DNA from: Lachnospiraceae bacterium
GTDB taxonomy: Bacteria; Bacillota; Clostridia; Lachnospirales; Lachnospiraceae
DNA length: 64,000 nucleotides
Direction of reading: 5' to 3'
NCBI GenBank assembly: GCA_021202075.1
Contig: JAJQDT010000096.1
Coordinates: 62,001 to 126,000 of the forward strand
Both the position numbers and the translations under genes were made by a program. The notes beneath the pieces were generated by a model that did not search any database, was not told where the DNA came from, and saw only the letters and a list, made by a program, of their open reading frames with translations. This document shows positions 16,278 to 25,900 of this stretch, piece by piece. Numbering within the stretch: the first letter of the stretch is position 1; every line of letters begins with the position of its first letter.

Positions 16278-16820
16278 ATGGCTAAATATGTTTGTACTGT
16301 ATGTGGTTATGTTCACGAGGGAGATTCCGCACCGGACGTCTGTCCGATCTGCAAGGCGCCGGCATCCAAATTCCAGGAGCAGGCAGAGGACCGCACCTGG
16401 GCTGCTGAGCACGTAGTAGGAGTCGCACAGGGCGCTCCGGATGATATCATTGCAGACCTTCGCTCGAACTTCGAGGGCGAGTGCTCCGAAGTAGGCATGT
16501 ACCTCGCAATGGCGAGAGTCGCTCACAGAGAAGGCTATCCGGAGATCGGACTTTACTGGGAGAAGGCAGCTTACGAAGAGGCAGAGCATGCGGCGAAGTT
16601 CGCAGAGCTCCTCGGCGAAGTGGTTACCGACAGCACGAAGAAGAATCTTGAGATGAGAGTTGACGCAGAGAACGGCGCGACCGCAGGCAAGTTTGACCTG
16701 GCGAAACGCGCGAAAGCGCTGAACCTCGACGCGATCCATGACACCGTACATGAGATGGCGCGCGATGAGGCGAGACACGGCAGAGCGTTCGAGGGACTGC
16801 TGAAGAGGTATTTTGGCTGA
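16278..16820 (+). CDS. Reverse-type rubrerythrin
   Basis: A 180-residue iron protein that reduces hydrogen peroxide in anaerobes. The rubredoxin-like domain is at the N-terminus (CTVCGY and CPICKAP, residues about 6-26) and the ferritin-like diiron domain follows (about 55-178, with E/ExxH-type ligands in [20 protein letters not shown] and [11 protein letters not shown]). This order is opposite to classical rubrerythrin, hence reverse rubrerythrin, as in clostridia where it is strongly induced by oxygen through PerR. The start ATG 16278 follows AAAAGGAG. The PerR-type operator in its promoter and the perR gene upstream support peroxide-controlled expression. Strong use of GCG, GAG and CTC codons suggests high expression. 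Confidence 0.95.
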
Positions 16821-16916: not shown

Positions 16917-16949
16917 GGATAGGGGGAGCCATCTCACCCTATCCTTTTT
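16917..16949 (+). terminator. Rubrerythrin terminator
   Basis: GGATAGGG (16917-16924) pairs with CCCTATCC (16937-16944) and is followed by five T. The T run leads directly into the 44-bp element that flanks the next module. Confidence 0.92.
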
Positions 16950-16989
16950 ATGCGCTGGGCCGGGCAGGGTGTTTTGCGGCTAAAGCCGC
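16946..16989 (+). repeat. Left copy of the 44-bp inverted element
   Basis: Starting in the T run of the rubrerythrin terminator, 44 bases match the reverse complement of 19434-19477 with only two mismatches. The element contains GGGCCGGGCAGGGTG and ends in a small hairpin GCGGCTAAAGCCGC. The two copies point toward each other across the XRE-ImmA-PIN module. Confidence 0.88.
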
Positions 16990-17029
16990 CCCGGCTGCGA
17001 GAGGCGTTTTCCGCCTGATGCGCGAATTA

Positions 17030-17086
17030 CATACCATAAAAGCCTCGACGCTCTACGCCCCGCTGCACCTGCGTTTCTATGGTATG
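17030..17086. repeat. Palindrome CATACCATA...TATGGTATG
   Basis: A 9-bp perfect inverted repeat with a 39-nt centre lies between the left 44-bp element and the PIN-like gene. Poor A/G..T/C complementarity extends the stem a little. It has no T run toward the PIN gene, so it is not an obvious terminator and might be a recombination or regulatory site. Confidence 0.5.
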
Positions 17087-17138
17087 TGCTTCACACGTTA
17101 AACGGCACAGTCTGCACATATTATTTCTTAACTATTCT

Positions 17139-18077
17139 TTAAAACACAATATGTATCCCATTCGGGCTCATGATCAGATCGGTCAATTCTTCGCAGCTCA
17201 ATGATAATAAATTGTTTTTCAGGTCAAAAAGACGCATCCCCAATACTGCTATATTTCCATCAGTACCAGAGCTTAAAATTGCCTTTATGTGTTCCCTGTC
17301 CAAAAGAATATTTTCCCGTTTCAAAACCTGTACAAGCCTGGGCGTACTGAACACAGAAATTTTACTTTCACAGTACCGCTCCCATCTTTTCCCAAACATG
17401 ACGCCAAACTTGCCTGCAGCACCTCTGTCATCCGTAATCACACAATACTTTCCATCCTCTTCACCCGGTAAATCCGACAATATATATAAGCAAATTGCAA
17501 TCAATTCCTCCCCCAGATTATCTCCAGGCTCCTTATTTGCTCTGATTGTCTTAAAAAAACGTTCATACACATTACCATTCCCCAGATTTTTGCCCTTAAT
17601 AATTATATCTGTCAGAGCACTATCCCGATCCATCGTCGTTCTGATCGTACTCACCGGATTTTTAATCTCTCTGGCAGCCCAGATCAGACATTCATTTATT
17701 TTTTCATTTGCAGCAAAGCACTGAGCCATAGCGAAGTACAAATCTTCTTCATAAATAAGCAAACTGGTAATTCCAGATACTTTTATCATCCTCAGGTATT
17801 CCACATATTCCCGATTCAAAATACCGCTGTGCGAAGCAAGCTCCATTAAAACAGTCTTGGTTATGATAAAAACTGCATCTTGCATTTCCATGTATTTTAA
17901 TAAGTAAGAATTCTCCGGATCCTTCAGCTTTGCATGCCTCCGAAAGGAACAGGCATCATAAAAAAAGCATCTCCGTTTCTCAAGGATATGTTCCGAAATC
18001 ATCTCCTTATCCACAACCACAAAGGACATAATTTCATCAATATTAAGAGGAATGTCTGTATAAGCAACCTCCGCCAT
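17139..18077 (-). CDS. PIN-like nuclease-fold protein of the XRE-ImmA-PIN module
   Basis: A 312-residue protein whose residues about 36-250 show the spaced acidic residues of a PIN RNase fold: Asp41 in FFYDACSF, Glu79 in TKTVLMELA, the Glu190/Glu191 pair in NLGEELIAI, and Asp216/Asp217 in VITDDRGA. The last 60 residues are an unassigned helical tail. Its start is 3 nt after the ImmA-like stop, so the three genes form one operon. In VapC-type toxins this fold cuts RNA; here the usual small antitoxin partner is replaced by an XRE regulator and a metallopeptidase. The gene is visibly more A+T-rich than purH or rubrerythrin beside it, suggesting transfer. The fold call is from motif spacing and needs structural confirmation. 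Confidence 0.75.
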   Translation of the reverse strand: MAEVAYTDIPLNIDEIMSFVVVDKEMISEHILEKRRCFFYDACSFRRHAKLKDPENSYLLKYMEMQDAVFIITKTVLMELASHSGILNREYVEYLRMIKVSGITSLLIYEEDLYFAMAQCFAANEKINECLIWAAREIKNPVSTIRTTMDRDSALTDIIIKGKNLGNGNVYERFFKTIRANKEPGDNLGEELIAICLYILSDLPGEEDGKYCVITDDRGAAGKFGVMFGKRWERYCESKISVFSTPRLVQVLKRENILLDREHIKAILSSGTDGNIAVLGMRLFDLKNNLLSLSCEELTDLIMSPNGIHIVF

Positions 18078-18080
18078 CCA

Positions 18081-18884
18081 TCATTCCCCCTTTATCTCAG
18101 AATAAAGCATGCGGATATTACGCAAAACCAATTCCAATGTCCTGCTGTCTGTATATCCTTCCTGAATATATTCCCATCCGAATCGCTCCACTGCTGCTTC
18201 TAAATGAGGATAATCATTCCTTTGGGTCGCGTCAAGAATACTGACATCCAGCCATAGTCTGGAAAAATCATCTTTGATTCTACCAGAATCCATATTTAAA
18301 AGATCTTCCGTAATCTCGCTGCTTTCAGATAACTCCAGCTCATAGCATCGAATCAACACTGCCATATAAGGAGCCTGATAGTAATTCATCAGACGAATCA
18401 GCGTATCCTCTTCCAGACCATTTGACTCATTTTTAAATTTCTGATACATGAAGCGAAACCCCGTTTCCGGCATCAAAAGTGTCCCCGCAAACAAGTTTGC
18501 AGAAAGCTCCTCTTCCTGTTCATAGTATTGTTCACTTGCGAATTCCAGTTTTGACCGAAACTCCCGTTTTTGAAACAGAACATGATAAACCTCGTGGCAT
18601 AACGCAAAATTTACATTCACTTTTGGCAAAGAACTATTCAACACAAGATATCCAAGCGCATCTCCTTTATAGCTGAATGCACCAATTTCTTTATCCGCGA
18701 AAGGCATTTCCATCACCAGAAATCCCTTTCTTTGAAAAGAAGGACGTACAATCTGCATAATATTCAGAACATCCTGATCGCAATTCATTCCAACAAAGGA
18801 ATAGTATTTTTTTACCAGTGCTTCCATATCCGCTCTGTTTGTGCTGCTAAATTGGATAATCCTTCTAAAACGTTCAATATTCAT
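18081..18884 (-). CDS. ImmA/IrrE-family metallopeptidase (COG2856-like)
   Basis: A 267-residue protein with a zinc-peptidase core. It has His97-Glu98-x-x-His101 in CHEVYHVLF, followed about 25 residues later by the downstream acidic ligand region EELSANLFAGTLLMP (Glu126), the typical M78 arrangement. Known members (ImmA, IrrE) cleave or inactivate a cognate XRE repressor when activated by DNA damage or phage-related signals. The gene begins 2 nt after the XRE stop, as expected for such a pair. Its target is therefore probably the adjacent regulator. The C-terminal 120 residues are not recognised and may sense the trigger or contact the PIN-like partner. Confidence 0.9.
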   Translation of the reverse strand: MNIERFRRIIQFSSTNRADMEALVKKYYSFVGMNCDQDVLNIMQIVRPSFQRKGFLVMEMPFADKEIGAFSYKGDALGYLVLNSSLPKVNVNFALCHEVYHVLFQKREFRSKLEFASEQYYEQEEELSANLFAGTLLMPETGFRFMYQKFKNESNGLEEDTLIRLMNYYQAPYMAVLIRCYELELSESSEITEDLLNMDSGRIKDDFSRLWLDVSILDATQRNDYPHLEAAVERFGWEYIQEGYTDSRTLELVLRNIRMLYSEIKGE

Positions 18885-18886
18885 CT

Positions 18887-19252
18887 CTATTCTCCGGACA
18901 GATTTAAAAATCGCTGCTTTGCGCTCATGATTTCGTCTACGTTCTCCATCAGCCGAATTAATTTTCCGGCAAATTCTTCCTGTTTTTCTGTCGGATCCCC
19001 GGCATAAAATTCAATTCTTCCCGTCATATAGTCCTGCTTCTTTGGCACAGTGAAAGGTTCCTGCAGGAAAAATTCCATATTCTTTCCTAAAGCCATCGCT
19101 ATCTTTTCCATGTCCACACCAGTTACATCCTGAGCCCCCGTTAGAATACGAGATAACTTTTTAGCGTCAATCTCTGCTTTCCGGCTCACATAAATTTGCT
19201 TAATTTTCATTTGAGACAAATAAGTATTTACATTCTCAATATATTTTGTCAT
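18887..19252 (-). CDS. XRE-family DNA-binding regulator
   Basis: A 121-residue protein with an N-terminal helix-turn-helix (about residues 15-65: KIKQIYVSRKAEIDAKKLSR, then GVDMEKIAMALGKN) and a short C-terminal extension. The start is ATG 19252 with ATAGGAG eight nucleotides upstream. An in-frame ATG at 19288 cannot be used because it lies inside the -10 box. It heads the three-gene operon and is the likely repressor of that operon and substrate of the adjacent ImmA-type peptidase. The extension may be the cleavage or interaction region. Confidence 0.85.
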   Translation of the reverse strand: MTKYIENVNTYLSQMKIKQIYVSRKAEIDAKKLSRILTGAQDVTGVDMEKIAMALGKNMEFFLQEPFTVPKKQDYMTGRIEFYAGDPTEKQEEFAGKLIRLMENVDEIMSAKQRFLNLSGE

Positions 19253-19286
19253 ACCAGCCACTCCTATCCACGGTTTATCTGATTCC

Positions 19287-19314
19287 ATTATACATCCTCT
19301 TTACTTTTTTTCAA
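19287..19314 (-). promoter_or_regulatory. Promoter of the XRE-ImmA-PIN operon
   Basis: On the minus strand TTGAAA (19309-19314) and TATAAT (19287-19292) are 16 nt apart. Transcription would begin near 19280, leaving a leader of about 28 nt before ATG 19252. The region further upstream (19315-19433) is very A+T-rich and holds no gene. Confidence 0.75.
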
Positions 19315-19433
19315 GGAAAATCTCTATATTTAAGATAATTTCTATTTCATTTTTTCTTCTATCTCATCTATAGCATTCTATTTCTCCGAATTTCTCTCAT
19401 ATTTTGACATAATAATACAATTGAAAGCCAAGT

Positions 19434-19477
19434 GCGGCTTTAGCCGCAAAACACCTTGCCCGGCCCTGCGCATAAAA
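19434..19477 (-). repeat. Right copy of the 44-bp inverted element
   Basis: Reverse complement of the element at 16946-16989 with two mismatches. Like the left copy it begins at the T run of a terminator, here that of purH, and ends in GCGGCTAAAGCCGC. So each copy directly follows a terminated gene facing the module. Confidence 0.88.
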
Positions 19478-19548: not shown

Positions 19549-20727
19549 TCAGTGATGGAACAGCCGGATCCCTGTGAAGGCCATCGCCATTCCATATTTG
19601 TCGCAGGTCGCAATGACATCCGCATCGCGCACGGAGCCGCCCGGCTCGGCGATGTATTTCACGCCGGATTTGCGGGCACGCTCAATGTTGTCGCTGAACG
19701 GGAAGAACGCGTCGGAGCCAAGCGTGACATCCTGCATCTGGTCAAGCCACGCACGCTTCTCTTCCTCAGTGAACACCTCCGGCTTCTCGGTGAATACCTT
19801 CTCCCAGGCGCCGTCCGCGAGCACGTCCATGTACTCCGCGCCGATGTAGACGTCAATCGCGTTGTCGCGCTCCGCGCGGGTGATCTGATCGGAGAATGGC
19901 AGATTCAGCACCTTCGGGCACTGACGCAGGAACCAGTTGTCCGCCTTCTGGCCTGCGAGCCTCGTGCAGTGCACCCTCGACTGCTGGCCCGCGCCGATGC
20001 CGATCGCCTGACCTCCCTTGACGAAGCAAACGGAATTCGACTGCGTATACTTCAGCACGATCAGCGCAATCTTCATATCCGCCAGCGCGTCCGCCGGGAT
20101 GTCTTTATTTTTCGTCACGATGTTGGAAAGCAGCGCGTCGTCAATCGGCAGCTCCTGGCGTCCCTGCTCAAACGTCACGCCGTAGACCTGCTTGTGCTCA
20201 ATCGGATCCGGCCGGTAATTCTCGTCAATCTGGATGACGTTGTAATTGCCCTTCTTTTTCAGCCCCAGAATGTCCAGCGCTTCCTGCGTATAGCCCGGCG
20301 CAATCACACCGTCGGATACCTCACGCTTGATCAAAAGCGCCGTATCGCGGTCGCAGACATCCGAGAGCGCGATAAAATCTCCGAACGAAGACATCCGGTC
20401 CGCGCCCCTCGCCCGCGCATACGCGCATGCCAGCGGCGACAGGTTCTCATAATCATCCACCCAGTAAATCTTTGCCAGGGTCTCGGTCAGCGGAAGTCCA
20501 ACCGCGGCGCCCGCCGGAGAAACATGTTTAAAGGAAGTCGCCGCCGGAAGACCGGTTGCCGCCTTCAGCTCGCGCACAAGCTGCCAGCCGTTAAACGCAT
20601 CCAGAAAATTAATGTAGCCCGGCCGACCGGAGAGCACCTGAATCGGCAGGTCACTCCCATCCGCCATATAAATCCGCGACGGCTTCTGATTCGGGTTACA
20701 GCCATATTTCAAAGCAAGTTCTTTCAT
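19549..20727 (-). CDS. purH: Stand-alone AICAR transformylase (PurH formyltransferase domain)
   Basis: A 392-residue enzyme that adds the tenth-carbon formyl group to AICAR using 10-formyl-THF, the penultimate step of purine synthesis. It matches only the transformylase half of bifunctional PurH: SFKHVSPAGAAVG carries the catalytic Lys-His pair, and GQQSRVHCTRLAG and LGSDAFFPF are family hallmarks. The N-terminal IMP cyclohydrolase domain of usual PurH (about 520 residues in total) is absent. That activity is supplied by the PurO-like gene upstream. The start ATG 20727 directly opens MKELALKYGCNPNQKPSRIY, the normal beginning of stand-alone forms. A 258-bp gap without genes separates it from purO. 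The shared ZTP riboswitch senses the substrate of this very enzyme. Confidence 0.95.
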   Translation of the reverse strand: MKELALKYGCNPNQKPSRIYMADGSDLPIQVLSGRPGYINFLDAFNGWQLVRELKAATGLPAATSFKHVSPAGAAVGLPLTETLAKIYWVDDYENLSPLACAYARARGADRMSSFGDFIALSDVCDRDTALLIKREVSDGVIAPGYTQEALDILGLKKKGNYNVIQIDENYRPDPIEHKQVYGVTFEQGRQELPIDDALLSNIVTKNKDIPADALADMKIALIVLKYTQSNSVCFVKGGQAIGIGAGQQSRVHCTRLAGQKADNWFLRQCPKVLNLPFSDQITRAERDNAIDVYIGAEYMDVLADGAWEKVFTEKPEVFTEEEKRAWLDQMQDVTLGSDAFFPFSDNIERARKSGVKYIAEPGGSVRDADVIATCDKYGMAMAFTGIRLFHH

Positions 20728-24538: not shown

Positions 24539-25044
24539 AAGTACCTCTTTTTCACAGACAGAAAAGTCCGGAGATGCTTGTGATATATTTCCATGCTTTT
24601 TATGCCTGTATTTTCTGTTGCAATTTTAAGGAAAGTTTATTATACTGAAACTGTACAAAGGAACCGTACGGAAGCCGAAAGCTCCGTCCTGGTTCTTTCA
24701 CAGAAAGGGTATACAATCTGCTTGCGGCCGGGAAGTACAGCAACGGTCCAGGTTTTCCCTCCTTTCTTTTTTGTGTATATCCTTTCTGTTGTGTATTATA
24801 TATAATGAGAGTTTGCTTTGCAAGTATTTTGTGCTCTTGCAATTGTTTTTCTGCATTTTTTACAAAATACGTGAGGGATGGTTCCTCCATTTTTTTGCAA
24901 TCTTGACGAAACATAGGTTTCACTGATTTTTTCCCCGTTTTGGCAACGGGCAAATTGATCTGCCTCAAGCCTCGCCTGAGAAGAGCGTGAAGCCTCAGCC
25001 TGCCACAGGCAGATATAGTCGGCAGATATGTGAAATTTAACCAC
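24539..25044. other. Non-coding stretch upstream of mecA
   Basis: About 500 bp in which every open frame lacks a ribosome-binding site and has unlikely composition. The DNA is A+T-rich in the middle (24760-24900). I see no repeat, tRNA or clear RNA structure in it. Confidence 0.5.
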
Positions 25045-25072
25045 TTTACATTTGGTGCGAAATGCGTATAAT
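25045..25072 (+). promoter_or_regulatory. Predicted mecA promoter
   Basis: TTTACA (25045-25050) and TATAAT (25067-25072) are 16 nt apart, placing the transcript start near 25080, about 47 nt before the mecA ATG. Confidence 0.65.
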
Positions 25073-25126
25073 GTAGTATAATCTTTTGCGAACCATGCGG
25101 GGCAAGTATGTAAAGGATGTGATTGG

Positions 25127-25900
25127 ATGAGGATTGAAAAAATTAATGACCGACAGCTTCGCTGTACACTGACGACGGAAGACCTGGCGAGCCGCAATAT
25201 TAATCTGAAAGAATTTGCCTACGGTTCTGACAAGGCGAGAGAGCTTTTTCAGGATATGATGACCGTTGCCGCCCAGGATTTCGGATTTGAGGTGGACAAT
25301 ATCCCTCTTGTGATTGAGGCGATTCCGGTTTCGATGGATACGATTATTCTGATCGTTACAAAGGTCGAGGACCCGGAAGAGCTGGATACCCGTTTTTCGC
25401 GCTTTTCCCCGGAGAGCTCCTCATCGGAGAGCGGGTTTTCGTTCGCGGATCTCCGGGAGCATATCGAGGGGGCCGATGACATCCTGGATCTGATCCGGCG
25501 GATTTCTGAGGGACGCAAGTCTTCTTCTGAAAAGAACTCTCCTGTCAAGGAGCTTGAGGATTCCACAAAGGATGCGGATGTCACGGATCCGGAGAGCACG
25601 CCGGATCTGATGCGGGCTTATTCGTTTCAGACACTCGACGATGCGATCCGCGCAGCGCAGGTTCTGGATGCGGTCTACGACGGACCGAACTCCCTGTTTA
25701 AAAACAATGAGGATGGCTCGTTTTATCTCGTGCTGAAGAATGCTTCTGTTCCTCCGGCGCAGTTTAATAAGGCATGTAATATTCTTTCTGAGTACGCCGT
25801 TCCCTGCCACGCGACAGCCGGCATGGAGGCCTACTTTAAGGAGCATTTTGAGACCATACTCGCAGAGCATGCGCTGCACAGCCTGCGAGCGATTTCATAG
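25127..25900 (+). CDS. mecA: MecA-family adaptor protein
   Basis: A 257-residue adaptor of the MecA/YpbH family, which delivers proteins to the ClpC protease. The N-terminal substrate-binding domain (MRIEKINDRQLRCTLTTEDL to ITKVEDPEELDTRFSRF, about 1-90) is highly typical. A Ser/Glu/Asp-rich linker (about 90-160) joins it to the C-terminal ClpC-binding domain (about 163-245, with YSFQTLDDAIRAA and YLVLKN). The start ATG 25127 has only a weak ribosome-binding site (GATTGG), as is common for this gene. It has its own promoter and terminator. In Clostridia the physiological substrates are not defined, so the competence role known in Bacillus should not be assumed. Confidence 0.93.
   Translation: MRIEKINDRQLRCTLTTEDLASRNINLKEFAYGSDKARELFQDMMTVAAQDFGFEVDNIPLVIEAIPVSMDTIILIVTKVEDPEELDTRFSRFSPESSSSESGFSFADLREHIEGADDILDLIRRISEGRKSSSEKNSPVKELEDSTKDADVTDPESTPDLMRAYSFQTLDDAIRAAQVLDAVYDGPNSLFKNNEDGSFYLVLKNASVPPAQFNKACNILSEYAVPCHATAGMEAYFKEHFETILAEHALHSLRAIS

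Follow-up and report, generated by a model that had tools for sequence, protein, structure and literature searches.

In the available excerpts of Makarova 2009 (PMC2701414), a COG2856 protease is predicted to cut an Xre repressor, the proposed switch for a linked PIN or RelE toxin, and testing of this three-component system is called of considerable interest. The NetFlax study (Ernits 2023, PMC10440598), as far as its excerpted text goes, associates ImmA-domain antitoxins with PIN-like domains and treats RosmerTA as phage defence; CapP and PprI are described, in the extracts at hand, as repressor-cleaving proteases activated by single-stranded DNA (ssDNA). Partial texts also report an Xre-peptidase fusion whose toxicity on its own was relieved by a HigB-like partner (Vassallo 2022), which cautions that roles can be reversed, and two PIN systems validated by DefensePredictor, of which one is a single protein and the other has a DUF5830 partner. 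Here we analyzed a 64,000-nucleotide stretch of a Lachnospiraceae bacterium genome (GCA_021202075.1, contig JAJQDT010000096.1, positions 62,001 to 126,000 of the forward strand; hereafter, the window), in which genes for an XRE-family helix-turn-helix (HTH) protein, an ImmA/IrrE metallopeptidase and a PIN-like protein lie back to back. An earlier sequence-only reading had proposed a new immunity or toxin-antitoxin (TA)-like system that moves as a unit between inverted 44-bp elements. We lean toward regarding the locus as an XRE-ImmA-PIN operon that is complete in itself, has spread horizontally and works as a toxin or defence unit released by derepression.

The three genes and their products

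The three open reading frames (ORFs) lie on the minus strand at the coordinates first read for them, with gaps of 3 bp between PIN and ImmA and 2 bp between ImmA and XRE, confirming their tight packing:

17139 to 18077, minus strand: PIN-like protein of 312 residues, putative RNase effector
18081 to 18884, minus strand: ImmA/IrrE (M78) zinc metallopeptidase of 267 residues (H97, E98, H101, E126)
18887 to 19252, minus strand: XRE-family HTH protein of 121 residues, putative autorepressor and protease substrate

The sequence-only reading had assigned the first of these proteins a PIN-like character, and structure prediction bears this out at the level of fold. Both an AlphaFold2 model and structure alignment point to a PIN fold whose acidic residues are in place: D41, E79, D186, E190 and D216/D217 occupy in the model the positions expected for PIN active-site acids, and the structure matches include exosome, Utp24, Nmd4 and protein-only RNase P chains beside VapC. 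Sequence searches placed the protein in no family: there was no Pfam match at E ≤ 10 and no PADLOC, NCBIfam or PHROGs match at E ≤ 1; a profile search of solved structures returned nothing credible (best E of 0.035, with no VapC among the matches), and Foldseek searches of PDB and viral models gave no match at E ≤ 0.001. The protein, with its conserved acidic residues, is therefore a predicted member of the PIN-fold superfamily by its model and apparently not of any VapC family that sequence searches recognize; matching no model in these four collections, the family looks undescribed.

The middle gene encodes the HEVYH motif noted earlier, and its product has a Pfam Peptidase_M78 match (E 3.9e-16). 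Its catalytic residues are kept in 39/39 module loci (described below), and its predicted fold, closest to CapP and PprI, appears CapP/IrrE-like. The XRE assignment also stood: HTH matches are weak and under curated cut-offs (HTH_26, E 0.0029; TIGR02607, E 2e-4), yet the protein aligns with 38 relatives. Its start is most likely 19252 rather than the listed 19288, because the ATG at 19288 shares bases with the -10 box (19287 to 19292); the XRE gene of the Treponema plasmid is 363 bases long in RefSeq, independent support for the equivalent start. Scripted starts of the relatives equal the 19252 equivalent, with a profile that had been trimmed beforehand to that start.

Inheritance of the three genes as one unit

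An alignment-query, pattern-based scan of genome contigs yielded 39 loci through the PIN protein, and in all 39 the genes follow one another as XRE-ImmA-PIN in the same order and on the same strand, as they also do on the Treponema plasmid. Gene spacing is near-fixed across these loci, and the proposed three-gene module is thus a recurrent arrangement, its PIN homologues co-occurring with XRE and ImmA. Pairwise identities are correlated among the three proteins, with r of 0.88 for PIN-ImmA and 0.85 for both PIN-XRE and ImmA-XRE (38 sets), values reached in 0/999 permutations; L059 and L077 were left out of this comparison, the former (split ImmA) having been dropped as a row from A4 and the latter (odd XRE start) from A5. 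When an ImmA profile was run against 299 family genomes, every one of the six strong matches, with E from 1.8e-134 to 4.8e-88, belonged to this module, the one in G135 to a decayed copy, and the next-best match fell to 1.8e-26. Since the order is constant, the identities co-vary and the sites of insertion are unrelated (see below), we conclude that the genes form one unit. Damaged copies were also seen: L059 has its ImmA frame broken in two beside intact XRE and PIN genes, and G135 (L044) holds a decayed module with ImmA cut short and only the C-terminal part of the PIN gene.

Paired operator-like sites upstream of XRE

The region upstream of XRE in the window contains the following features:

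19261 to 19265, minus strand: Shine-Dalgarno-like AGGAG upstream of XRE, identified by eye
19287 to 19292, minus strand: -10 box TATAAT
19309 to 19314, minus strand: -35 box TTGAAA, with a 16-bp spacer
19320 to 19336, minus strand: operator-like site O1, ATCTTAAATATAGAGAT, matching 10/12 specified positions, 5 bp upstream of the -35 box
19394 to 19410, minus strand: operator-like site O2, ATGTCAAAATATGAGAG, matching 10/12, 74 bp from O1

Regions upstream of XRE have in common the palindrome ATCTCA-N5-TGAGAT. Sites with at least 10 of the 12 positions occur in 25/37 regions, whereas 200 dinucleotide shuffles averaged 0.45 and never exceeded 4; the consensus was derived from the same sequences that were scored, so this score is not independent, and spacing played no part in defining it. 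A site scoring at least 9 is present in 35/40 regions (none in 5) and lies 6 to 8 bp upstream of the -35 box in 19/37, the window's distance being 5 bp. Among 26 site pairs in the 40 regions, 20 are spaced 71 to 74 bp apart, and shuffles gave a mean of 0.06 and a maximum of 1 for pairs in the 70- to 75-bp class. Loci with too little upstream DNA were left out, namely L050, L063 and L077 from the 37-region palindrome and -35 counts and L063 and L077 from the 40-region pair count. A spacing of about seven helical turns suggests two XRE dimers on one face of the DNA, with cooperation or looping, and paired palindromes in this position suggest autoregulation; we infer that XRE is the protein that binds them. 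Sites were also found in the Treponema (12/12), Selenomonas and Succinatimonas copies, and the control region therefore travels with the genes. The window's own genome lacks any exact match to an operator pattern from which the window sites themselves deviate.

Distribution, flanking genes and composition

Two convergent genes, both named by eye, flank the module:

16278 to 16820, plus strand: rubrerythrin-like gene
19549 to 20727, minus strand: purH-like gene

The purH-like gene is present in 28/30 genus genomes. Twenty flanking-gene loci were fetched, the window's own among them, and four others contain both flanking genes within the stretch retrieved (L087, L092, L094 and L095, from genomes G397, G404, G417 and G409, respectively); in all four, a short intergenic stretch, which in L094 holds a repeat-like insert, replaces the module, and a profile search detected no PIN gene elsewhere in these genomes. 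The module is thus not conserved at this locus in all relatives. By profile search, the PIN gene was found in 5/47 genus genomes including the window's own (3/25 of the best assemblies), and the other four copies adjoin different genes, with two sharing one site. Larger samples gave 8/397 genomes for the family and 3/398 for the phylum, own genome included in each; the phylum count includes a weak match in G739 (E 2.7e-4), which has no XRE or ImmA beside it and was not counted as a module. The genus, family, phylum and contig sets overlap, so the counts are not additive, and the look-alike pairs L055/L057 and L080/L081 were counted separately.

Most of the 39 scanned loci come from Lachnospiraceae or other Clostridia; the scan also found Selenomonas ruminantium (L068) and a Succinatimonas metagenome-assembled genome (MAG; L071), and the module is also carried by Treponema succinifaciens plasmid pTRESU01 (NC_015386.1, L085). 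On this plasmid it lies on the opposite strand among clustered genes for tail-sheath, PAAR and baseplate proteins. Single-sequence scans of genome and viral contigs found no relative, an alignment query of viral contigs found none, and there was no match in the phage collection. The proposal that the module moves as a unit accordingly keeps its footing in horizontal spread, unrelated sites and absence from four relatives, and loses the part that invoked 44-bp ends.

Module G+C is 39.5% against 51.0% for the window, and the two longest module ORFs have the lowest G+C of the 42 window ORFs of at least 150 residues. The A+T-richness seen in the sequence-only reading is therefore real, but the module lies below its flanks in 38/39 loci compared (means of 38.8% and 44.8%; L063, with short flanks, was left out), with a correlation of 0.79 between module and flank G+C. 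Low G+C is partly an intrinsic property of the module, and because it is general across module loci, composition alone is weak evidence for recent arrival. The third lowest G+C of the 42 ORFs, 40.7%, belongs to an ORF at 24603 to 25142.

Related XRE-ImmA loci and genes beside the module

Of 35 distant ImmA matches, the 24 with loci were examined. The third gene is intact in 18 (PIN-like motifs by eye), is reduced to remnants beside a full-length ImmA in 4 (L116, L118, L127 and L136), as expected for a costly effector, and was not detected with the chosen queries in the remaining 2. Ten of the third proteins were scanned; none had a convincing Pfam match, three matched PDC-M69C (E 2e-77 and 1e-9, with the third marginal at 0.008), and PDC-S70 was matched well by two (E 3e-6 and 1e-8). 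L137 is a full PDC-M69 locus, with A, B and C matched at 8e-44, 2e-107 and 2e-77. When the window PIN family was compared with the distant third genes by hhalign, the probability was 22% at most, so homology of the PIN families beyond the fold is unproven. The third genes of L115 to L138 fall into several families, which may represent unnamed effectors.

At 39 loci, the two ORFs closest to the module on either side were viewed by eye, and many of the loci lie among what look like housekeeping genes. Neighbours were scanned at four of these 39 loci, chosen by eye, which does not amount to an enrichment test; 9/10 of the proteins matched PADLOC models: AbiL (L058), HEC-01 and PDC-M38 (L083, for which the longer locus L043, covering the same region, supplied neighbours too), type IV restriction (L076) and PDC-M42 (L065).

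Proposed mechanism and alternatives

Starting from the order and joint inheritance of the genes, their conserved catalytic residues and predicted folds, the phased palindromes and the patchy presence, we propose that XRE dimers would bind the paired palindromic operators near the promoter and keep the operon repressed. A stress signal would lead ImmA to cleave XRE; as CapP and PprI suggest by analogy, this signal is probably ssDNA arising from damage or from replicating phage. The PIN protein would then be made upon derepression and, as a putative metal-dependent RNase, may cut cellular RNA and cause growth arrest or a phage block. Toxicity and a role in defence are thus predicted consequences, and the TA- or immunity-like logic of the module is supported but unproven.

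It is also conceivable, though we think it unlikely, that the locus is a classical TA system like RosmerTA, with ImmA or XRE neutralizing the PIN toxin by binding and the palindromes serving ordinary TA autoregulation. PADLOC RmrA models match the window ImmA at E 1.3e-12 and weaker, the NetFlax excerpts treat the ImmA domain as an antitoxin, and the near-fixed gene spacing suggests co-expression. However, an ImmA antitoxin should not be split beside intact XRE and PIN genes as at L059 (a single MAG locus, where sequencing error is possible), and a pure binding antitoxin would not need the catalytic residues that ImmA keeps in 39/39 loci; both points concern ImmA and not XRE. Less probable again is a PIN protein that, instead of being a toxin, processes RNA under regulation as part of a small stress regulon; RNA-processing factors do figure among its structure matches and many modules sit among housekeeping-like genes, but the gene is patchy within genus and family and spread across phyla, and the remnants at 4 of the 24 distant loci are what one would expect of a costly gene.

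The inverted 44-bp elements are dispersed intergenic repeats that lie outside the module:

16946 to 16989, plus strand: first copy of the dispersed 44-bp repeat
19434 to 19477, minus strand: second, inverted copy

The arms themselves are genuine, being 95% complementary, and their 33-base core found 0 matches in 100 window shuffles. The repeat (core GGGCCGGGCARGGTGTTTTGCGGCTAAAGCCGC) has 41 matches in its own genome, the two arms included, 36 of them at E ≤ 1e-4, and in 30 copies viewed by eye it commonly comes right after a terminator-like hairpin, often with another hairpin following. Because the rubrerythrin-like and purH-like genes converge, each copy here follows one gene, and the copies indicate host DNA on both sides of the module. 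When the flanking elements were sought in relatives, blastn at E ≤ 0.01 detected none in 41 module-bearing loci, and four further genus loci showed only an 11-base match. A composite mobile element ending in these inverted repeats, which the two arms would suggest, is hence scarcely credible and was rejected: the repeats are dispersed and were not found at other module loci instead of being element-specific, as the ends of a composite transposon or a unit bounded by miniature inverted-repeat transposable elements (MITEs) would be, and by eye no recombinase was seen among the ORFs between the arms. At the rubrerythrin-purH site of L094 (about 1230 to 1480), the repeat is interrupted by a MITE-like insert with ends GGAACTGTCGC and GCGACAGTTCC, identified by eye.

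Returning to the derepressible operon, a broader version of it may be entertained, one that we offer tentatively and would not yet bet on: XRE-ImmA might be a general chassis that swaps PIN-type effectors without an antitoxin, the nuclease being controlled only by proteolysis of a repressor on two operators spaced by seven helical turns, a cooperative or looped switch that ssDNA trips during phage infection, and the window would hold an unnamed PIN family of this class. Modules of this family are clean candidates for testing, being mostly intact and widely transferred and having defined operator-like sites, a protease whose predicted fold resembles those of CapP and PprI, and an effector for which an active site is predicted. 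They would test whether transcriptional control alone can keep an RNase effector safe, and with them the defence candidates gain a PIN family that had no annotation.

Comparison with known systems

Comparison with defence catalogues showed that PADLOC already holds an XRE-ImmA-PIN-like set, PDC-M69, with three genes in the same order as in the window. The window ImmA matches M69B (E 3e-21, residues 56 to 240) and the XRE matches M69A weakly (E 9.3e-4), whereas the PIN protein, with 312 residues against 188 model positions, has no M69C match at E ≤ 1, and hhalign of small alignments of the two gave a probability of 0.9%; M69C itself appears PIN-like from its motifs. As regards CapH/CapP, the ImmA fold is predicted to be like that of CapP, but the XRE has no capH match at E ≤ 1, and both CapH/CapP and DdrO/PprI control other operons. 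RosmerTA, in the NetFlax excerpts, shares with the window an M78 domain, an association with PIN-like domains and a TA and phage-defence setting; its HTH and protease are often, though not strictly, one protein (RmrA models span 357 to 400 positions), whereas the window and 39/39 loci have one gene for XRE and another for ImmA. The system outlined in the Makarova 2009 excerpts groups PIN with Xre and an M78 protease in a single predicted operon, as the window module does; those excerpts contain no mention of the window PIN family or its operators. Nor did our literature search, with subscription journals mostly outside its scope, recognize a paper on either. The architecture is therefore not new, having been anticipated by Makarova 2009, by the ImmA-PIN pairs of NetFlax and by PDC-M69; the novelty first claimed for the locus holds only for its nuclease family and the operator layout, both of which look undescribed.

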